A stretch of 64,000 nt of DNA from NCBI RefSeq assembly GCF_000278275.1, contig NZ_JH725147.1, positions 1,681,063-1,745,062 on the forward strand. Reading direction: 5' to 3'. Each line of letters begins with the position of its first letter. The stretch's first letter is position 1. The notes beneath the pieces were generated by a model. It made no database searches. It was not told the origin of the DNA and saw nothing but the letters and a program-made list of their open reading frames with translations. Origin of the DNA: Bartonella tamiae Th239. Its GTDB lineage: Bacteria; Pseudomonadota; Alphaproteobacteria; Rhizobiales; Rhizobiaceae. Below, piece after piece: positions 52,768 to 64,000 of this stretch. Both the position numbers and the translations under genes were made by a program.

Positions 52768-53020
52768 ACCCTGACCTTTCCTTCTTCACATCTGTGTTTT
52801 ATGAAAACATTCATCACAGTGGAATAACAATATGCGACTTAAGTTAAGAAATAATGCTTATCGGTTTCGCAAAAAACAGCCTGCCCGTCAATGACAAGTT
52901 TATGCAATAATGAGAAATTAAATAATATAATCTACTGGAATTTGTTTTTTCAAAAGCTAAAACTGATCGTCAGCTATTGATACTGTGACATTCTATAACT
53001 TAATCACTTTGCATTTTAAG

Positions 53021-53094
53021 TGGAGGCCTCGCCCGGAATCGAACCGGGATACAAGGATTTGCAGTCCTCTGCGTAACCATTCCGCCACGAGGCC
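53021..53094 (-). tRNA. tRNA-Cys (GCA)
   Basis: Cloverleaf on the minus strand: acceptor GGCCTCG/CGAGGCC, discriminator T, encoded CCA (53021-53023), T-arm GGTTCGATTCC. The anticodon loop CTGCAAA has anticodon GCA at 53060-53062. Length is 74 nt including CCA. Confidence 0.97.
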
Positions 53095-53533
53095 TCATTT
53101 CAACTATGAAAAGGCTCATTAAGTCAAGGCGAGTGATCCGTCAAGGTATTATCCGCCTTTTCAAATAAGTTTCTTAATCATGAAGACGCTAAGCACAACT
53201 TTTTATTGCTTTTCGTTTTATCAATCAACAGGGTATAATATATCTAAAAACTTAAATTTCATGAAATAAAAGAAAATGATTCTCATTTTATATAAATGTA
53301 ATACGACATATTAATGTATCACGCACCTATAAATTTTTAAAATCGTAATATATTAAAGAGACATTATTATTGATCATTTTCTATAAAAGACCGTATTTTA
53401 CGTACGTCAAAAGATCATAAAAACAATAAAACAAAATATGTTTTGAATTTTTTTCAAAAAAAAGACTTTTTCCACTTGGCAAATCAGTATTGCATTTGCT
53501 ATAGCCCACCAACATTATACATTTGAGCACTGT
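53095..53533. other. Intergenic region between tRNA-Cys and tRNA-Asn
   Basis: 439 bp between divergent tRNA genes. It is AT-rich and should hold both promoters. No other feature was recognised. Confidence 0.55.
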
Positions 53534-53608
53534 TCCCCGGTAGCTCAGTGGTAGAGCAACCGGCTGTTAACCGGTTGGTCGCTGGTTCGAATCCGGCCCG
53601 GGGAGCCA
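53534..53608 (+). tRNA. tRNA-Asn (GTT)
   Basis: Acceptor TCCCCGG/CCGGGGA, discriminator G, encoded CCA (53606-53608). D-arm TAGCTCAGTGGTAGAGCA, anticodon loop CTGTTAA with GTT at 53566-53568, and T-arm GCTGGTTCGAATCCGGC. It borders the transposase-remnant region, the usual position for an island insertion point. Confidence 0.98.
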
Positions 53609-54600
53609 TTAGTTTTATAGCTAAATATTTGTCATTAAGTTTAAATTTGAAAATTAAGTTTAAAAAAATGCGTGTTGGGACCATTTTGAACCCATTTTAA
53701 GCACAATCAATAGCCCATACTGGGACTAAATTCATGCATTAAGATTGCTTACGCTAACCATTTTGTCAGGTTAATTCCAACTCGTCTATAAAAGACATGA
53801 AAATTGCATTTGACGCAAGCGTCAAATTAAGTCACTTATGAAGAGTGGTGGTTCTATTTTGCTTATATGTTTGTCTAATAATTAGATGCCTCTCATGATT
53901 AAAATAAATATGTATGTGTACTTTAACATGTGTGTATTTCTGTAAAATTATTATGCTTTAAAAATGTTGCATCGCTCGTTCTCGTCGGCAAAATCATAGG
54001 TAAGAATTCTCATAGTGATTATTAAGACGACGACCTGTTTGTTGTCGCTCTTCAACGCCAATATATTTAGTGTAGCATTATATGAAGCAAGTCTATCTGT
54101 TGTTATTATTTCTGAAAGCCCATTCTATTTCTTTTTTATAAGCCTCAAAAAAGCAGATTTATTGCGGCGCTTGGAAAAAATCATTCCAATACTTCACTTT
54201 CATGATCAACAATTCGACATAGATATTGTTTTCCTTTGATTTTAAAGAAAACTTTATTAGGCGCCACAGTCAATTAAAACATTCATTCTTATGTTTTTAC
54301 GAATAGAACAAGCGATTAATTTATAGAAATGAGAAAACCAATCACGAACATAATAAATAACCGCTAAACGGATAATTTGATGTGAAGTCTTAAAATACAT
54401 AAAAGGATTTATCTTGCTTACGACGTAATAAAATCACGTCATGGTTGAAACATATTTGTCTAACAATGCCTTAGATATTCTTTATATCAAAATATAATAA
54501 TTTAGCTGTCATATTTAACCAATTTTTTTCGTAAATATAATTTCTAATAACCTTTAAAAATTGAGGCTGTCATAGATAAAAGAAAATAATTACTAGTCTC
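53609..54600. other. Gene-free region downstream of tRNA-Asn
   Basis: About 1 kb without a convincing gene. A 74-codon open frame (54015-54239) has no recognisable similarity and no ribosome site, and I do not call it. A short palindrome lies at 53808-53827. A sequence at about 54563 (GAGGCTGTCATAGATAAAA) could be the left inverted repeat of the IS1595-type remnant that follows. Confidence 0.5.
53808..53827. repeat. Short perfect inverted repeat ATTTGACGC-AA-GCGTCAAAT
   Basis: Two 9-bp arms separated by 2 nt, unaccompanied by a U tract or an adjacent gene. The symmetry is that of a dimeric regulator's operator, but it could be residual island DNA. Confidence 0.7.
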
Positions 54601-54789
54601 ATATGGACAAGTCTCGTCATAAAAGTCGTCACTTACAAATACGGCAAAAACGAACTCTTCAAGTATTTTATCGCTGGTTCTAGTACCCGTTCAGCAGCCA
54701 CTTTATTAGGTATTAATCTTAATATAGCAATACTCTATTTTCATAAACTACGAGAGGCTATTGTAGCACATCTTGAACAAGAAACATAA
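54601..54789 (+). pseudogene. IS1595-family transposase, N-terminal remnant
   Basis: An open frame from about 54601 to the TAA at 54789 gives YGKNELFKYFIAGSSTRSAATLLGINLNIAILYFHKLREAI. This matches the helix-turn-helix N-terminus of IS1595/ISSpo3-type transposases (F-x-AG-x-T-x-R-x-AA pattern). There is no start codon in frame, and the catalytic DDE part is absent downstream. It is a truncated relic next to the IS3 relic. Confidence 0.65.
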
Positions 54790-54929
54790 GAAATAATGAG
54801 TGGCGCTTCAAATATTGTTTAAACAGAAAATTAGAAGTAGTTTAGGAAATTTAAGCATTTACGCTCAGTGGAGTTTTTGCCTGATTTTGGCTTAGATGTC
54901 GATGACAAGAGACATTACGATAATACGAC

Positions 54930-56125
54930 CATACCGAAACCATAGCGCAGCTTTTAAGCGAAAGTACCCCCTACTGCAATCAGGGGCAAGAAAACCTTAT
55001 TGGATTCTTTCACCACTTTGACGTACACGCAAACCAGATCAAGCAATGGAAAGATCAGCTTCTTGAGAAGGCGACTTTCATATTTGGTCATGAAGCCAAG
55101 GCAGAACAGTGCGCGCCCAGCGTTGATGTGAAGACGCTTTATGCCAAGATTGGGGAGCTGACTTTAGAGAATGATTTTTTATCAGGGGCGTTCAACACGG
55201 CGGGATTGCTGAGTGCAAAGAAATGATTGACCCTGAACACAAACTATCGATCTCACGCCAATCTAAGCTTTTAGGTTTCAGCCGTGGCAGTCTTTACTAT
55301 TCCCCGTGCCATGTATCAGATGGTGATTTGGCACTGATACGCCGAATTGACGAACTCCATTTTGAATATCGAATATCCGTTTGCGAGAAGCTGAATGTTG
55401 CAAGGGCTTTGAAAAGCGAAAGATGGAAGTCGGGCAACTAGATGTCGCCACGCAAATGAAGAAAATAGGGATAGAAGCGATATACCGCGACGGTCTAATA
55501 CCTCGAAGCCAACTTCTGCTCATAAAGTCTATCCCTATCTGCTGCGTCATCTGGCTGTGACATGGCTTAATCAGGTCTGGGCGATGGACATCAGCTATAT
55601 TCCCATAGCCTGTGGTTTTTTTATCTTTGTGTCGTTGTGGACTGGTTTAGTCGAAGGGTTTTGTCTTTGTGGCGGTCAATGACAATGGTAGCCGCTTTTT
55701 GCATAGGTGAGCGTCGTTAAGGAAGCACTTGCGCGTTATGGTAAACCCGACATATTCAATACCAACCAAGACTCACAATTGACGTCGATAGACTTCACGG
55801 CAGTACTACAGAACGCGCAAATCGCTATCTCAATGGATGGCAAGGGCGCGTGACGCCACAATGCCTTTGTTGAGCGATTTTGAAACAGTCAAATATGAGG
55901 AGGTTTATCTCCATACCTATAAGAGCGTTGCTAAGGCACGTGCTGGCATTGGCCGATATCTAACTTTTGCAATACCAGAAATCCACATTCATCGCTTGGT
56001 AGCGATAATACTGGATATGGCATACTTCAAAGCGTTGGAAACCATAATAATGACAGCGTGATCAAGACGCAAATTCACTTAACAAAACACTACAAACTGT
56101 TCAGACAAATTGAGCCATCTCTTAC
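54930..56125 (+). mobile_element. Remnant of an IS3-family insertion sequence
   Basis: The span covers the broken transposase plus a right-end stretch at about 56080-56125 (AAACTGTTCAGACAAATTGAG), the kind of end seen beyond orfB in this IS3 group. The left inverted repeat was not found, so the left boundary is approximate. Confidence 0.65.
54935..56061 (+). pseudogene. IS3-family transposase (orfAB), heavily decayed
   Basis: OrfA traces run RNHSAAFK, then FDVHANQIKQWKDQLLEKA and DVKTLYAKIGELTLENDFLSGA...GLLSAKK. OrfB starts in an overlapping frame at 55223 (MIDPEHKLSISRQSKLLGFSRGSLYYSP). It continues in other frames as VWAMDISYIPIACGF, LARYGKPDIFNTNQDSQLTSIDF, ISMDGKGA and KYEEVYLHTYKSVAKARAGIGRYLTF. 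At least five frameshifts and several stops (for example TAG at 55440) interrupt it. The DDE positions can be followed, but the protein cannot be made. Confidence 0.9.
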
Positions 56126-57217
56126 TGTCTAAAACGTAATCTTCACCCTTCGTGTTTTTTGACCTAAGCAGTTCCTACTTCAGTGAAATTATTTATCATT
56201 AAGCAAAAATTAGGCGAATTATCTTTTTTGGGGGCACGAATGAGAACGCATGGAATTGGTTTTCAAACAGTCGCAAATTGGAGACGAACTTCATAAAATT
56301 ATCGTTCTTTTTGATGGGTTTAGTGATAGTAACCTTAATATTTCTTTTATATCAAAAAAAACCATTGCTTTTGATGGCGATTAAAAAGCCACGACTTAAA
56401 GTCAAATAGTCACCTCCTGACAAGCAAGAACTCGTTGAGATTTTTTAAATTTTTTTTGTTGTGTAAGAAACGAAACGGAGAAAATTTGAGTAAAAAAACG
56501 GACAAATGACGGTTTGGTACTATTGTCATCAATCATCCGAGAATGGTTTTGCATAGCAAAAGAATAAGGAAAAGCTGGCTATTATGGTAATTCATAAAAG
56601 GTGAATAATTTTAAAAAAGACTTCTATTTATGAACTTCGAAAAATATCGCGATGTTAAATAATTATCCTTTTAAAAATATAAAATAATCAGCATACAAAT
56701 AATAACCTTATAAGAAAGGAAACAAATTTAAATGGATAAAAAAATATGCATAATAATTATATTCATTAAAATAATGTATAGAGACAAAATATTTATGTAG
56801 CTGTCGTCAAAGAAGCGGGTAAGAGTGCATCAAATTTCTGTTTCTTCTGGAGCAACTCTTGTTAATGTTATTGGCTCTAGCTTTGTGGTAGAGTAAATGA
56901 ATTTTAAACTAAGGTGATTATAGTGACAACCATAAACACATTATTTGATATTTATGCAAAGCCTCCGCATAGTGTAAAAATATAATCTAATATAATTTTA
57001 AGCTGGCGCCAAAAGAATTTTTTTTTAATATCTTTACTTCAATCAATAAAGACTTTCCTAAAACAGTAACTTTAATGTTTCTAAAAAACATAGTTGTGCT
57101 TCTTCATATAAAGAAAATAAATAATTCTTTAAAAGGTCATTCTATTTTCCATCATTTATAAAAGACACTATATATTGTAATGACGAATTAGAATTATTTT
57201 GAAAAATCAATATCAAA
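56126..57217. other. Gene-free, very AT-rich region before phnX
   Basis: About 1.1 kb. It has a 44-codon frame at 56250-56384 (MELVFKQSQIGDELHKIIV) and a fragment at about 56829-56897 reading ISVSSGATLVNVIGSS. The latter resembles autotransporter passenger repeats but is too short to assign. No intact gene and no clear terminator for phnX was found. It reads as decayed DNA. Confidence 0.45.
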
Positions 57218-58021
57218 TCAAGGACGCTCACCACACTCTATTAACTGTTCGATTTTATCAATGATAGGTAATAAATCAGCGACAGTATCAATGACAAAAT
57301 TTGCCCCAGCTTTACGGAATATGGGTTCAATTTTTTGTCGAAGTAACAAACGATCACTTTTATTCATAGCGTCATATTCTTTTTGTGTAAGCCCTGATTC
57401 ATTACCACTTAATGCAACAGCAACAGTCCAGCACCCTGCCTCTACCCCTTCCAGGATACCAACAATTGTATCATCAATTTTAACAACTGTTGAGGCTGGC
57501 CAAACATCAAGATCAAGAAATGTGCGGTACATATTAAGTGGCGTCGGGCGCCCATGTTTAACATCTCCAGCACAAACAAGATTATCAACAACATATCCTT
57601 GTTCAGCCGCAAGCGGTAAAATACGCTCCATGATTGAACGTGTATAGCCTGTAGTTGAACCTATTTTCATTCCACGATGTTTTAATTCAGTTATAACATC
57701 TATAGTGCCAGGAATAAGTGAAGCATATTTATGAATGATAGCTTCATTTAAAGGTACAAAAACATCATAAATCGCATCAATATCTTTTTCACTTGGCTCT
57801 TTTCCATATTTAGAAGTCCATGCCGCATGAATACGACTATTATTGATCATAGCTGTTATGTGATCATGCTTTGGTAATCCCATGGGCTGGCGGGCTTCTT
57901 CAAGAGTAACCTCTATGCCAAAACGTGAAAAAGTTTCAATGAATACCCCCATTGGAGCAAAAGAACCAAAATCAATAACAGTTCCAGCCCAATCAAATAC
58001 TACAGCTTTGAGATGCGACAT
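57218..58021 (-). CDS. phnX: Phosphonoacetaldehyde hydrolase (phosphonatase)
   Basis: HAD-superfamily enzyme that cleaves the C-P bond of phosphonoacetaldehyde to acetaldehyde and phosphate. The ATG at 58021 has AAGG upstream; a TTG 9 bp earlier is less likely. The 267-aa enzyme has the nucleophile Asp10 in FDWAGTVIDFG. The Schiff-base Lys51 sits in PMGLPKHDH, the residue that sets phosphonatases apart from other HAD enzymes. The later motifs GSTTGYTR and KIDDTIVGILEGVEAGCW follow. Last gene of the phosphonate operon, 21 bp after the FAD enzyme. Confidence 0.95.
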   Translation of the reverse strand: MSHLKAVVFDWAGTVIDFGSFAPMGVFIETFSRFGIEVTLEEARQPMGLPKHDHITAMINNSRIHAAWTSKYGKEPSEKDIDAIYDVFVPLNEAIIHKYASLIPGTIDVITELKHRGMKIGSTTGYTRSIMERILPLAAEQGYVVDNLVCAGDVKHGRPTPLNMYRTFLDLDVWPASTVVKIDDTIVGILEGVEAGCWTVAVALSGNESGLTQKEYDAMNKSDRLLLRQKIEPIFRKAGANFVIDTVADLLPIIDKIEQLIECGERP

Positions 58022-58042
58022 CTTATACAACCTTACTTTTAT

Positions 58043-59170
58043 TTATATATTATAAAGTTCATTCAATACTTCTTCACCTAAAGCAAAAGCAGTTGAAGCT
58101 CCTGTACCTCCGGTCACCACAACCAATCGAACATTAGGTTCGGGTCTATCTATCAGAACCGTTTTATCTGCTGAATATGCATAATCACCTATCCATCTTT
58201 TTACAATTTTACGCTTAGGAATATCGAAGACATCGTCAAGAGCTTCTAAAATCATATTATCAACATGATCTGAAGCAAAAGGTTGGGGACTATGTCCATA
58301 CACATGACTATCACCAACCACCAATGAACCATCAGCTGACTGAACAGCTATCAAATGAATACCAGCGGCACGTTTTTCGCTCTCTTCTTTATCAAGTCTT
58401 TCGGCCAATCCTCTCGCTTCAGGCAACGCACTAAACCCTTCATAGCGTGCCAAACTTAAGTCAGACATAATGGCTGCTTTTTGTTTAAAAATTCTTTCTG
58501 GCGCAACACGTAACATTTGTAATGTACAAATAGACAAATTATGTACAGCAATACGTTCAGGATAAAGTGTTGAAAAATCATTCCCAGGACATGCAATAAC
58601 GGTTTCAGCTGAAATAACCCCTTGTGTTGTTTGGAGTGTATTACCATTAATAGCATAAACAGACGTATTCCAAAAAAAATTAACATCGTGTTTTTTATGA
58701 AGCCATTTCGCGAGTTGCGGAATAACTAGAGCTGATTCAACACGCAATTCATGTGGGCTATATAATATATTTTTTATACCCTTTGTTTTAAGAGCTGGCA
58801 CATATTGCAAAGCCTGATCGACAGTAATCAAAGTGCATGATTGTCCCATATCTGTTTTAAGAAATGATTCCACAACATGAGCTGCTTCATCTCTATATGC
58901 AGGGATAACAAGACCAGAATGAATAATATCAAAACCAACTTCAGCGGCAATCTCAGCCCATATTTCACGACTACGTAACGCACGTTGATAATGTGCACCG
59001 GCACGTTGCCCTGTAACGGTGACAAAACCAAAATTACGAATTGATGCACCAATTGCATGTGGTGAACGCTCAATGACAATCACTTTTTTTCCCATGCGCA
59101 TAGCGGCAAGTGCTGTACCAAGTCCCACTATACCAGCACCAACAATTGCAATATCATAGCTTTTATTCAT
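58043..59170 (-). CDS. FAD-dependent amine oxidoreductase of phosphonate operons (TIGR03364/PbfD type)
   Basis: DAO-family flavoprotein. The start at 59170 (MNKSYDIAIVGAG) is chosen because the dinucleotide-binding motif GAGIVGLGTALAA should lie at the N-terminus. A 30-codon upstream extension would overlap the permease gene. It is 375 aa, with IGASIRNFGFVTVTGQ after the FAD loop and the C-terminal VVTGGTGASTAFALGEEV. Such proteins occur next to phnX and oxidise N-methyl-2-aminoethylphosphonate, and some 2-aminoethylphosphonate, to phosphonoacetaldehyde. Context here, without phnW, supports that role; substrate choice is inferred. Confidence 0.85.
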   Translation of the reverse strand: MNKSYDIAIVGAGIVGLGTALAAMRMGKKVIVIERSPHAIGASIRNFGFVTVTGQRAGAHYQRALRSREIWAEIAAEVGFDIIHSGLVIPAYRDEAAHVVESFLKTDMGQSCTLITVDQALQYVPALKTKGIKNILYSPHELRVESALVIPQLAKWLHKKHDVNFFWNTSVYAINGNTLQTTQGVISAETVIACPGNDFSTLYPERIAVHNLSICTLQMLRVAPERIFKQKAAIMSDLSLARYEGFSALPEARGLAERLDKEESEKRAAGIHLIAVQSADGSLVVGDSHVYGHSPQPFASDHVDNMILEALDDVFDIPKRKIVKRWIGDYAYSADKTVLIDRPEPNVRLVVVTGGTGASTAFALGEEVLNELYNI

Positions 59171-59183
59171 CGATATAATCTTC

Positions 59184-61223
59184 TTAACTGCTGCGCCAAT
59201 TATGCTGACGTCGTATGACAAAATTAGTAATAGTAGAATGCGCAATCCGAACAATGACATTTGTATAAAATATCATCATACCCATAGCAGCTGCGGCTGC
59301 AACATCACCAGCATCATCCATGTTTAGGACAGCAATTGAAGCAAGGGTTGTATTTGGACTATAAATAAATACCAATGCTGAAACGGTCGTCATAGCATTC
59401 ACAAATAAATATATCCAAATTTCAGAAATTGCAGGAAAACATACAGGTGCACTAACACGACCAAGAATACGCCAGAGTGGTTGCTTAAGTGATAAAGATA
59501 CAGACTCAAATTCACTATCCATTTGTTTTAATGCCGTTGTAGCAGTTAAATGAGGCACAGTATAAAGATGAGTAATGGTACAAATAACAAGTATAGCCAT
59601 TGTTCCATACAAAAAATGAAGCGGATTGGACGGATTATTAAAAAAGAAAATATATCCTAGACCAAGCACCATTCCAGGTATCGCCATTGGCATGATGGCT
59701 AAAAGCTGTAATAAAAACCGTCCTGCAGAAAACTCTTTAATTTTTTCAGTAATATAAGCACCACAAAAGACAACAACAATGCCTAGTGTTGCTACATAGA
59801 ATGCCAACTGTAGCGAATTCCAATAAGATGTCCAACCGCCACCATCCATGTGATTAAAGTCAAAATGACTCAATACAGGTGTTATATTATATGGCCAAAA
59901 TTTAGCAACAGAAGCAAGCTGACACATAGATACGAGCAATAAAATAAAAACTGAAACGACTAAGCATATAATAAAAAATATTATATCGCGTTTGCGGTTA
60001 ATATCTGGAGAATACGGCACTGCACGTGCTGTTAATTGTGAAATTTGCTTTTTACTTACAAAACGTTCGATACAAAACGCAAAAATTGCTGGCAAAAGGA
60101 GCAACATGGAAACAACAGCACCCATTTGGAAATTTTGTTGGCCAATAACTTGCTTATAAATATCGATAGCAAGCATTTGATAATCATCACCTATAACTTT
60201 TGGTACACCAAAATCTGTGACAACAAGTGTAAAAACAACAAATGCAGTTGAAATAAAACCATAACGAGCAGCAGGCAAAGTAATCGTTATAAATATTCTC
60301 AAAGGTGAGGCGCACAATACTTCAGCTGCTTCATATAAACGCTTATCGGCATTACCTAATGAGACGATCATAATAACTAACGCATGCGGAAATGTAAAAA
60401 AAATACTCGCTAATATAATACCAATAGGTCCATAAACACTTTGCCCCATCAATAATGGCGTAATAATCCCTTGCCGACCGAAAAGATAAACAAGACCGAT
60501 TGCGGGAAGCACAGATGGAATAAGAACGGGAATAAAAGCAACAAGACGAAATGCTGTTTTACCAACTATGCGTGTCCGTATGATGCCGTAAGCAAACAAG
60601 AATGCAATCGGTGTAACAATCAATGATACCAGAGCAGCAATCTTAAGCGAATTAAATATTGATTGACGTAAAAAAGACGTAGAAAAGTAATCAACAAAAT
60701 TGGCAATACTATATTGCATAACAGGCTTAATCTGCACATTCGCCAAATCTGAAGTCGAAAGCTCAATCCAATTACCATGTGGTAGAACTTTACCATCAAG
60801 CAATAATACTCCATCAAAGCTATTATCTAAAACACGATATAGCTCAATATTTTCAAGTTCTGTTTTTGGAATTATATTGGTTATCAATTCACGGCTACGT
60901 TCACTTGCACGCAAACCATGATTGGCAACATATTCACTTTTTTCTTGCCAATCAGCAAGTGTTATTTCATCTTGCCAAGCACCATTTTTCTTCATTAAAA
61001 TTTCAATAATACTTAAATCAAAACTAAAACTTTGAAATGCTTTAGATGCAAGCAATGTCAATGGTAAAACCAAAGTTATAAAAAAATAAAAAATAACAAT
61101 TAAAAGAAGACCTCTTTGTAACCATGAATCTTGAAGAACTAACTTATTACGATGAGATAATGAATTTGAAGAAAACTGTTGTAAAACAGCTGAATTTTCC
61201 TCACCCAATAAAATTTTTAACAT
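59184..61223 (-). CDS. Phosphonate (2-aminoethylphosphonate-type) ABC transporter, fused double permease
   Basis: The 679-aa inner-membrane protein carries two MetI-type permease domains in one chain. The first is at about 180-360 (coupling loop EAAEVLCASPLRIFITITLPAA). The second is at about 460-660 (DSEFESVSLSLKQPLWRILGRVSAPVC). This fused form matches PhnU2-type transporters. Helix 1 (about 36-60) is followed by about 110 hydrophilic residues (about 66-175), presumably periplasmic. Its start is 3 bp after the ATPase stop. It probably works as the complete pore. Confidence 0.88.
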   Translation of the reverse strand: MLKILLGEENSAVLQQFSSNSLSHRNKLVLQDSWLQRGLLLIVIFYFFITLVLPLTLLASKAFQSFSFDLSIIEILMKKNGAWQDEITLADWQEKSEYVANHGLRASERSRELITNIIPKTELENIELYRVLDNSFDGVLLLDGKVLPHGNWIELSTSDLANVQIKPVMQYSIANFVDYFSTSFLRQSIFNSLKIAALVSLIVTPIAFLFAYGIIRTRIVGKTAFRLVAFIPVLIPSVLPAIGLVYLFGRQGIITPLLMGQSVYGPIGIILASIFFTFPHALVIMIVSLGNADKRLYEAAEVLCASPLRIFITITLPAARYGFISTAFVVFTLVVTDFGVPKVIGDDYQMLAIDIYKQVIGQQNFQMGAVVSMLLLLPAIFAFCIERFVSKKQISQLTARAVPYSPDINRKRDIIFFIICLVVSVFILLLVSMCQLASVAKFWPYNITPVLSHFDFNHMDGGGWTSYWNSLQLAFYVATLGIVVVFCGAYITEKIKEFSAGRFLLQLLAIMPMAIPGMVLGLGYIFFFNNPSNPLHFLYGTMAILVICTITHLYTVPHLTATTALKQMDSEFESVSLSLKQPLWRILGRVSAPVCFPAISEIWIYLFVNAMTTVSALVFIYSPNTTLASIAVLNMDDAGDVAAAAAMGMMIFYTNVIVRIAHSTITNFVIRRQHNWRSS

Positions 61224-61226
61224 GAA

Positions 61227-62297
61227 TTACGCCGCTTCAAAGATGCGTAATTTTTCAAAAGGTAAGTGCATACTAATCATATCACCATGTGCAAAACTTT
61301 GCTGATATTTCGAAACACCAAAAATATCCGCCAAAATAGAAGAGCAATCAAGATCCCCACCGCTTAAACGAGCTCGCACAAATGAACCAAAGAATTCACT
61401 ATCATCAATACGCCCAATTATTGAGTTTTGTTCATAGCTACCAACATTACCAACTATGATATCTTCTGGGCGTATAGCTAAGACAATATTACGATTATCA
61501 ACCTTAGACGTATCTGTTGTAATCATCGATTTTCCGATGCGGACTTTATTTTCAGCAATAATTTCAGCAGGAATAAAATTCATTTCACCAATAAAATCCG
61601 CAACAAAACTATTTACTGGTGAAGCATATATATCGTGTGGTGTGCCTATTTGTTCTATTTGACCATCACGCATAACAACGATACGATCCGACATGGTAAG
61701 AGCTTCATGCTGATCATGAGTAACCATAATAGTTGTAACTCCAATATTGTGCTGTAATTCTTTCATTTCTTTACGCAGATGTGTTCGAACTCGCGCATCA
61801 AGGGCTGACAAAGGCTCATCAAGTAATAGAAGTGAAGGATTTGTTGCTAGTGCACGTGCAAGAGCAACACGCTGTTGTTGTCCGCCAGATAATTTTGCTG
61901 GATACTTGTCACCTTGATCAGCTAAACCGATCATTTCTAGTAACGAATTTACACGAAAATTAATTTTCGTGCGTTTTAAGCCACGTCCATGTAAACCGTA
62001 AGCAATATTTTGTTTCACTGTAAGATTAGGAAATAATGCATAAGATTGAAATACTATGCCAAAATCACGTTTTAAAGCTGGTTGATTAGTGACATCCTCA
62101 CCTTTAATAAAAATACGTCCTTCATTTTGACGTTCAAGTCCGGCTATCAATCTAAGAAGTGTTGTTTTACCACACCCTGAAGGCCCTAAAAAACATACGA
62201 ACTCCCCTTCTTCAATCGACAAAGAAACATCGTTAAGCGCTATAAAGTTTTTAAATCGCTTCATTGCATGATCAATTACAATATGTGGAGTCGTCAT
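61227..62297 (-). CDS. Phosphonate ABC transporter ATP-binding protein (PhnT2 type)
   Basis: Nucleotide-binding subunit of the putative 2-aminoethylphosphonate importer. It is 356 aa, with Walker A GPSGCGKT at 38-45, Q-loop VFQSYALFPNL, signature [15 protein letters not shown] near 140 and Walker B LLLLDEPLSALDARVR. A C-terminal TOBE-like domain (about 240-350, LAIRPEDIIV) is typical of the MalK/PotA group. A 20-bp perfect palindrome lies inside the coding region at 61952-61971. It is followed at 3 bp by the permease. Confidence 0.9.
   Translation of the reverse strand: MTTPHIVIDHAMKRFKNFIALNDVSLSIEEGEFVCFLGPSGCGKTTLLRLIAGLERQNEGRIFIKGEDVTNQPALKRDFGIVFQSYALFPNLTVKQNIAYGLHGRGLKRTKINFRVNSLLEMIGLADQGDKYPAKLSGGQQQRVALARALATNPSLLLLDEPLSALDARVRTHLRKEMKELQHNIGVTTIMVTHDQHEALTMSDRIVVMRDGQIEQIGTPHDIYASPVNSFVADFIGEMNFIPAEIIAENKVRIGKSMITTDTSKVDNRNIVLAIRPEDIIVGNVGSYEQNSIIGRIDDSEFFGSFVRARLSGGDLDCSSILADIFGVSKYQQSFAHGDMISMHLPFEKLRIFEAA
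61952..61971. repeat. 20-bp perfect palindrome within the phosphonate ATPase gene
   Basis: CACGAAAATT followed directly by its reverse complement, no spacer, encoding TKINFR. Its function, if any, is unknown. Confidence 0.75.
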
Positions 62298-62412
62298 TTT
62301 ATATTTTCCTTAGGAAATTAGTTTTTTGACACATTCGCTTTACTTAAATGATAGCCAAAAATTAATAGTCTTTAGCAAAAACAGGAAATGTTTGAGTCAT
62401 AAAACGTAAAAG

Positions 62413-63438
62413 TTAGTGAAATTGATCTTTCTTTTGGCTTCCAACATCAAAGCGTTTTGTCCACTCTGCTATAATGCGCTCACGATTTTGCGCTGCCCAA
62501 GAAAAATCATTATCAATCATTTTTTCATGAACGTTCTTAGGAAAATTTTCTACAGGCTTTTCAAATGATGGAACACCCAAAACACCATAGCCAACACTAT
62601 ACATGTTCATTGCTTCATCGCTAATTGAGAAATCTAACAACTTTTTTGCAGCGTCAAGATTTTTCGTTCCTTTAACAATGCCAATTGCTTCAGCTTCCCA
62701 ACCTATACCTTCTTGCGGAATGATAACTTCAATTGGTGCACCAGATGACTTTTCTTTTGCTCCACGAAAATCAAATGAAATACCAATGACAAATTCTCCA
62801 CGCGCTGCATCTTTACATGGCTTTGAACCTGAATGCGAATATGATGAAATGTTTTTATGTAAAGCATCCATATAGGACCAAGCTTTTTCTTCACCAAACA
62901 TTTGTATCCAGCCACTTACATCAAGAAATCCTGTCCCTGATGAAGCTGGATTGGGCATGACGATCATATCTTTATATTCAGGCTTTGCTAGATCAGCCCA
63001 GCTTTGCGGCATCGATACACCTACTTTTGCCAATTCAGCGGTATTGACACAAAGAGCGGCTGCATAAGCATCTAATCCCAACCAACTTGGAGGATTAGAA
63101 GCGTCACGAAATTTTGGTGTTAAACGCTCAACACCTTTAGCAGCATATGGTTCTAACATACCTTCATTTTTGAATAAAGCGAGAGAACTTGCTGAAACGC
63201 CCCAAATTACATCTGCCTTTGGATTATTTTTTTCAGCTAAAAGCTTGGCTGTAACAACACCTGTTGAATCTCTGACCCAATCAATCTTAATATCAGGATA
63301 AGCTGCTTCAAAAGTATCTTTATAACGTTTAAGATCTTCTGCTTCAAAAGCACTATAAACAGTTAAACGTGTTTCTGCTAATGCAGTGCTTGAAAAACAA
63401 ATCGTCGATAACATTATGATCGAAATAATTTTGTACAT
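62413..63438 (-). CDS. Phosphonate ABC transporter, periplasmic substrate-binding protein (PhnS2 type)
   Basis: Extracellular solute-binding family 1/6 protein. The 341-aa precursor has a signal peptide (cleavage after ALA, residue 21). The mature part begins with ETRLTVYSAFEAEDLKRYKDTFEAAYPDIKIDWVRDSTG, the iron/phosphonate-binder type, with later WLGLDAYAAALCVNTAELAK. An AGGAG ribosome site lies just upstream of the ATG at 63438. First gene of the operon, 115 bp before the ATPase; the gap lacks a strong hairpin. Confidence 0.9.
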   Translation of the reverse strand: MYKIISIIMLSTICFSSTALAETRLTVYSAFEAEDLKRYKDTFEAAYPDIKIDWVRDSTGVVTAKLLAEKNNPKADVIWGVSASSLALFKNEGMLEPYAAKGVERLTPKFRDASNPPSWLGLDAYAAALCVNTAELAKVGVSMPQSWADLAKPEYKDMIVMPNPASSGTGFLDVSGWIQMFGEEKAWSYMDALHKNISSYSHSGSKPCKDAARGEFVIGISFDFRGAKEKSSGAPIEVIIPQEGIGWEAEAIGIVKGTKNLDAAKKLLDFSISDEAMNMYSVGYGVLGVPSFEKPVENFPKNVHEKMIDNDFSWAAQNRERIIAEWTKRFDVGSQKKDQFH

Positions 63439-64000
63439 ACATTACTCCTACTTAAAATCATATTAAGCAGGCGTAATAATCATGTTATGTTACTGACATG
63501 TGACAAAATTAAAAAAGAATTTAATAAATAATCAATATCTAATTAATAAAGTCTCAACTAGAGATATTCTTACTGGAACCCATAAAACAAAAATATATTT
63601 GTCTTTTAATATATACTCTCAATCTTCCATCATTTATAGACTGCAACATTTCTTAAAATGAGCAATTATTTTATCATAAATGAATGTGACTGTAGTTTTA
63701 ACATAAACACAACAAATCTAATTAAGCGCATTCTTTAAATAATTAGAAAACAAAACATATAGCCCCTTACTCTCACTAAATTTGATGCCGCATACAAAAG
63801 GCCATTTTTTATAAAAATTTGGCGTAGTACGAATTATTAAATTAAATTTTTTGTTTTTTATTCAAAACACTCAGGCCTATTTCTTAGATGATAATGATTA
63901 AAATACATATTAGAATATTATGATGCATATATGGTAAATTTAGGCAGATATAGCTCTTATTACTCATGAAAGTTTTGGATCATTTCCATTTTTCAATCAA
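63439..64000. other. Region upstream of the phosphonate operon
   Basis: 562 bp up to the window edge without a convincing gene. It should contain the operon promoter. A small interrupted inverted repeat (CATGT...ACATG, about 63481-63500) could be an operator, but it is too short to be sure. No regulator gene is visible in the window. Confidence 0.5.

Follow-up and report, generated by a model that had tools for sequence, protein, structure and literature searches.

In this study, we report that the stretch of Bartonella chromosome following the tRNA-Asn gene is a genuine insertion hotspot, since empty sites, other cargo, and integrase-bearing elements occur there in congeners. We consider it probable that in Bartonella tamiae Th239 an old operon for the use of 2-aminoethylphosphonate (AEP) filled this long-lived slot of the genus, which extends from tRNA-Asn to a GNAT-rhodanese-helicase gene group, and that the gene desert next to the operon is a permissive zone collecting insertion sequences (IS). 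The occupant would be a complete five-gene AEP operon of the Shinella type, old in the lineage as its host-like codons suggest and kept intact, while the adjoining desert would have gathered insertion sequences, with at least one arriving in recent times. The tRNA-flanked genomic hotspot is a generally known notion, and the present slot resembles it in its tRNA border, its empty sites, and the unrelated occupants found in relatives; it differs in that neither an integrase nor an attachment (att) repeat was found at the slot in B. tamiae, and in being occupied by nothing more than a metabolic operon.

The window, by which we mean the whole analyzed stretch of 64,000 nucleotides (contig NZ_JH725147.1, forward-strand positions 1,681,063 to 1,745,062), contains the following features of the slot.

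53534..53608, plus strand: tRNA-Asn(GTT), bounding the variable slot on the left; in three congeners, elements with an integrase carry a repeat of its 3' end at their far end
53609..57217, no strand: gene desert without an ORF longer than 90 aa, from the ORF list
53814..54421, minus strand: frame-broken relic of an IS6-family transposase, from a protein match and DNA similarity to a copy in the same genome
54637..54786, plus strand: remnant (50 aa) of an IS1595-family transposase, from matches to plasmid records
54833..56117, plus strand: broken IS3-type element with an rve domain; two copies with other flanks in the same genome share about 99.7% identity with it
56961..57056, minus strand: remnant (32 aa) of a DUF2269 membrane-protein gene, E 2e-6
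57218..58030, minus strand: phnX, predicted phosphonoacetaldehyde hydrolase, TIGR01422
58043..59173, minus strand: pbfD-like gene, predicted FAD amine oxidase, TIGR03364
59184..61223, minus strand: phnU2, predicted 2-aminoethylphosphonate ABC permease, TIGR03262
61227..62297, minus strand: phnT2, predicted ABC ATPase, TIGR03265
62413..63438, minus strand: phnS2, predicted substrate-binding protein, TIGR03261
63439..63979, no strand: AT-rich spacer, 25.1% GC, from composition
63980..64000, minus strand: 3' terminus of a GNAT acetyltransferase gene extending to 64510, right border of the slot, present in 11 congeners

An earlier reading of this DNA, made from its letters and ORF list (the sequence-only reading), described the tRNA-Asn gene as followed by about 3.6 kb without an intact gene and then by a metabolic operon. 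Both statements were borne out, as no ORF longer than 90 aa occurs up to 57217, where five intact phosphonate genes begin, all on the minus strand (57218-63438). The complete interval in which no ORF reaches 100 aa spans 52768-57220 (4453 bp) and includes a tRNA-Cys gene; it is more than six times larger than the next largest such gap in 76.9 kb, which measures 690 bp. A search against Rfam returned two tRNAs and nothing else. To the right of the window, the GNAT acetyltransferase gene is followed by a rhodanese gene and then by a DEAD-box helicase gene.

Gene content and predicted function of the operon

All five genes of the operon score above curated cut-offs. PhnX matches its family with 333 bits against a cut-off of 220, and its residues D13 and K54, which we take to be the catalytic ones, are invariant among four homologues. 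The FAD oxidase reaches 418 bits against a cut-off of 285; its ORF extends to 59260, and because the family match begins only at residue 35, a start at 59173 appears likelier. Within its first quarter, the permease PhnU2 is longer by about 95 residues, a feature common only to loci L082, L091, and L119 among ten compared. No gene for the transaminase PhnW exceeded the family cut-off, the best TIGR03301 match in the genome being 36.9 bits against 360.8.

The enzyme activities of the oxidase and PhnX are predicted here from family membership. PhnS2 together with PhnT2-PhnU2 would import AEP, and probably N-methyl-AEP too; the PbfD-type oxidase would convert the substrate to phosphonoacetaldehyde, bypassing the usual PhnW step, and PhnX would then cleave the C-P bond to give acetaldehyde and phosphate. 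With the importer genes, the AEP route would be complete. The part of Zangelmi et al. 2023 (PMC10590968) drawn on here describes a PbfD1 enzyme, annotated as TIGR03364, that oxidizes N-methyl-AEP to phosphonoacetaldehyde with oxygen as acceptor, a PbfD2 enzyme that oxidizes AEP itself as well, with the same product and acceptor, and the release of phosphate thereafter by PhnX. The B. tamiae genes resemble this hydrolytic AEP pathway without PhnW in that a TIGR03364 oxidase adjoins phnX and no phnW exceeds the cut-off; they differ in the host genus and in having the importer genes in the same operon, and the PbfD class is assigned here from TIGR03364 and not from a subgroup. Titles and opening lines of abstracts in the Bartonella literature on phosphonate yielded no paper on such an operon in the genus, and PMC7363004, in the portion available, concerns the C-P lyase of rhizobia only.

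As a separate observation, the best candidate for a Pho box upstream of phnS2 agreed with the consensus at 11 of 14 positions, a score that is met six times in 76.9 kb, and we do not count it as evidence.

Insertion-sequence relics in the gene desert

The sequence-only reading noted relics of two IS families in the desert; relics are indeed present, but they represent three families, namely IS6, IS1595, and an IS3 type. The IS6 relic, assigned to its family by NCBIfam, is matched in two frames over the whole transposase length by a 232-aa IS6 transposase encoded elsewhere in the genome (E 9e-43), and one control stretch of equal length gave no match. At the DNA level, 53763-54342 and 54348-54470 show 72.5-75% similarity to the genomic copy with the open 232-aa frame. 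The IS1595 piece matches 16 plasmid records, with E-values of 6e-7 to 4e-6 in the eight listed, four of which carry the IS1595 label and four of which are unlabelled; the same frame is also matched by two PHROG families of unknown function.

These data bear on the possibility that IS6-type transposition carried the operon in as a translocatable unit, which we regard as very improbable. An IS6 relic does lie to the left of the operon and an IS6 transposase gene with its frame open is present in the genome, but that left copy is 2.8 kb off and much decayed, and no IS6 sequence was found on the other side. The right-hand spacer (63439-63979), in which neither an IS remnant nor a tRNA-end repeat was found, is unmatched among the listed matches to loci of the B. 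tamiae genome and in 159 other loci.

The third element, for which the name IS3 is our own label and not that of a database, has an rve domain (E 1e-4, below the curated cut-off) and also matches a transposase family of the phage library PHROGs. Compared with a related element at locus L183, whose frame stays constant, it has at least five frame changes, at least one in the orfA part and four in orfB; L183 lacks a transposase annotation, has two frames in its own orfB, and is not a proven intact standard. The DNA of the element recurs without gaps at two other places in the genome, with 99.69% identity over 1285 bp (C1:724724-726008) and 99.66% over 1178 bp (C1:741568-742745), and these copies have differing flanking sequence and identical stops in the rve frame. 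Since near-identical copies elsewhere carry other flanks, the broken element is a recent arrival that was already dead when copied, its spread presumably being driven by something else, either recombination or a transposase acting in trans; it therefore gives little information on the age or decay of the slot. Three of the six rve places in the genome are IS3-type copies and one is the IS6 gene, while the remaining two showed no DNA match to the desert. Because two additional partial copies stop at unread sequence, an intact master copy may exist in the genome.

A Pfam scan of all six frames of the desert, with stops read as X, detected the rve domain only and overlooked the IS6 and IS1595 relics, and PHROGs returned four families, two of transposases and two whose function is unknown. 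When the desert was compared by tblastx with 159 loci outside the B. tamiae genome, 45 matches were obtained at 1e-4; all those listed fall on L183, and no homology to congener inserts or to related operon loci is found among them.

The region of the same genome beside the broken IS3-type copies (C1:705000-744999; L049, L050) is a repeat-rich surface-sugar gene region. It contains an inverted 2.09-kb duplication, 100% identical, with an lpxK-like gene and a partial kdtA-like gene, and a 1.8-kb unit present in three near-identical copies with sugar-modification-like genes (all names assigned by eye).

Occupants of the tRNA-Asn slot in other Bartonella genomes

An empty tRNA-Asn site, which the sequence-only reading proposed to look for in relatives, was found in three congeners, where a GNAT homologue follows tRNA-Asn after 295 bp (G005) or 288 bp (G007 and G089). 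The other clade of the genus shows no GNAT or rhodanese match at the slot, and there the helicase gene lies 0.4-0.8 kb past the tRNA in 5 of 16 loci (L057, L058, L059, L064, and L068). We could determine how far pcm lies from the helicase gene in 54 of 71 genomes, 53 of them congeners, in which both genes are on one contig and less than 100 kb apart; of the 17 left out, twelve have the genes split over contigs, two have them far apart, and three lack a helicase match at E 1e-120. This distance ranges from 0.7 to 72 kb: it is below 2.1 kb in 31 congeners, 2.1-5 kb in 11, and 10-72 kb in another 11, compared with 13.0 kb in B. tamiae. A rough control is the group formed by the helicase gene with the next two genes: it remains together in 10/16 loci, only its first two genes are seen in 2/16, and none of the three is in the covered stretch in 4/16.

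Large inserts of 8.7-34 kb separate tRNA-Asn from the GNAT gene in eight congeners (G006, G013, G020, G062, G064, G083, G084, and G090). All eight contain a GST-like gene (labelled by eye), and seven, with the exception of G013, have the membrane PQQ dehydrogenase gene gcd with pqqB-pqqC-pqqE. One autotransporter-like ORF is matched in seven as well (exception G020), genes pcaD, pcaC, pcaH, pcaB, and pobA occur in two (G062 and G064), and the G013 insert also holds metE-like pieces (by eye). In G064, nine insert proteins were confirmed by NCBIfam, and the tenth, the autotransporter-like ORF (by eye), had no match at 1e-50. Eleven query genes taken from the congener inserts have no match in the B. 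tamiae slot, nor in the corresponding intervals of G031 and G072. In loci L168-L169 (G064) and L174-L175 (G062), gcd-pqq genes are followed by genes for protocatechuate and 4-hydroxybenzoate degradation and by ABC-transporter-like genes (by eye).

It is a rather speculative idea that the slot serves one branch of the genus as a dedicated metabolic docking site, in which entire catabolic cassettes (gcd-pqq, pca-pob, and phn) would be exchanged by recombination between the conserved flanks, perhaps with the gene transfer agent of the genus as carrier, and that the phages of the other branch attach at this tRNA end. The first branch is presumably insect-associated, and we assume that the other clade lives in blood.

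An integrase near the far end of the interval was found in 3 of 17 genomes searched (G031, G072, and G033); for G016 and G023, which were searched too, the helicase match lies on another contig. In all three cases the 3' end of tRNA-Asn is repeated exactly beside the integrase, over 18 bp in G031, 28 bp in G072, and 37 bp in G033, and the combination is the signature of integration into tRNA-Asn. Prophage-like elements are seen at tRNA-Asn in the same genomes (L161-L163 in G031, L164-L167 in G072, and L060 with L182 in G033), and no literature on a Bartonella prophage at tRNA-Asn was found.

The tRNA-Asn 3' end is thus a real attachment site in the genus, as the three repeats attest, which speaks for the origin proposed by the sequence-only reading, that a prophage, integrative conjugative element (ICE), or island integrated at tRNA-Asn brought in the operon and then decayed, losing its integrase and right att site. 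We nevertheless consider this origin unlikely for the B. tamiae locus. No integrase was found between pcm and the helicase gene at E 1e-6, the three PF00589 places of the genome lying elsewhere, nor in the same interval of the eight congeners with large inserts, and at E 0.1 neither the desert nor the right spacer is matched by the three genus integrases. An integrase in an advanced state of decay could have been overlooked, because the Pfam scan overlooked the IS6 and IS1595 relics too. The 15-base end of tRNA-Asn, searched in the whole genome with 0-1 mismatch, occurs as a single copy, which is the tRNA itself. Right of the desert, a search of both strands as far as 76.9 kb, allowing 8 mismatches in 30, detected no repeat of the 3' end, nor was one detected in the eight large-insert congeners; the same test detects the repeats of G031, G072, and G033, and therefore a fresh att site would have shown. 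Neither the integrase nor the tRNA-end repeat that had been suggested right of position 64000 was accordingly found. Pfam and PHROGs together show just transposase and the two unknown-function families on the IS1595 piece. Since no integrase and no second tRNA end were found, the composition is host-like, and the IS3-type copy is recent, the view of the desert as the remnant of a decayed integrated element is not supported.

Relatives and descent of the operon

No real counterpart of the oxidase was found among 70 congeners, of which 38 gave weak matches, the best being 27.2 bits over 73 residues compared with 892 bits in B. tamiae itself. In a search of 36 congeners PhnX was likewise not found, apart from one match of 27% identity and 19.7 bits. 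An operon at the same locus in all relatives, which the sequence-only reading named as the observation contrary to it, was not seen.

A collection of 84,980 species contains 356 PhnX relatives, of which the best 80 were used. The closest among these 80 belong to tropici-group Rhizobium (63-68% identity), Brucella and Ochrobactrum (64%), and Shinella (65%). The same five-gene order is found in 5 of the 80 loci (L082, L091, L108, L126, and L143), and all five genes occur in other arrangements in L106, L119, L124, and L125. The operons of Shinella zoogloeoides PQ7 (L091) and Rhizobiales bacterium AFS002495 (L082) share the order phnS2-phnT2-phnU2-FAD oxidase-phnX with 57-69% identity per gene, as well as the extra PhnU2 stretch, and differ in having no flanking gene in common. 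Likewise, no other ORF of 49.0-76.9 kb was matched at 1e-5 in the 80 loci, which cover up to 8 kb on each side; tRNAs lie inside three of them.

In a tree of ten concatenated operons (2145 columns), the B. tamiae operon groups with L091 and L082 with support of 100/100, its row being flagged for odd letter make-up. In the PhnX tree it stands on a long branch (1.03) that is basal in a clade of 23 (support 100/88), mostly Rhizobiaceae-Brucellaceae, and in a quick tree of the oxidase, where the row is again flagged for odd letter make-up and the branch is long, it groups with Rhizobium tropici relatives (SH-aLRT 90). The single-gene trees of PhnX and the oxidase thus disagree on the nearest kin and are both compatible with vertical descent. 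The GC3 of the five operon genes is 22.2-23.5%, compared with 25.7 +- 2.3% in 37 other ORFs of at least 200 aa. A foreign base composition was consequently not found in the operon, and its host-like composition gives no date. Because GC3 is host-like, a transfer, if any, would be old.

Vertical retention, in which the operon was ancestral to the genus and lost in both main congener clades, emptiness elsewhere being due to deletion, is a possible explanation that we hold to be improbable, though worth weighing. It agrees with the host-like GC3, with the basal place of PhnX in its clade, and with a midpoint-rooted tree in which the B. tamiae genome forms a long branch, sister to the GNAT-sharing clade, and lies between the two main congener clades, so that two losses would be enough. 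Against it stand the lack of a real oxidase match in 70/70 congeners, the flanking genes that are not shared with the loci of the 80 relatives, the other cargo held in the slot by other lineages, and the finding of PhnU2 permease relatives on 136 plasmid records from several genera, although all of these are below 60% identity.

The operon is best read as cargo, because the slot is a hotspot and the oxidase is without a real counterpart in 70 congeners. The earlier suggestion that the phosphonate genes are cargo is thereby supported in part, whereas their origin from a decayed element is not; the direction and vehicle of any transfer are what we infer.

Overall, the locus, with a probably acquired old AEP operon in a long-lived slot, illustrates a genomic hotspot clearly though in a largely familiar form, with real metabolic cargo and an ordinary IS graveyard beside it. 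Through the operon, one species of this host-restricted genus would have a source of phosphorus (and of nitrogen) for which the oxidase gene was found in none of the 70 congeners. The slot itself is a single genomic address where metabolic and phage cargo is exchanged in the genus, and it can be inspected in each newly sequenced Bartonella genome.
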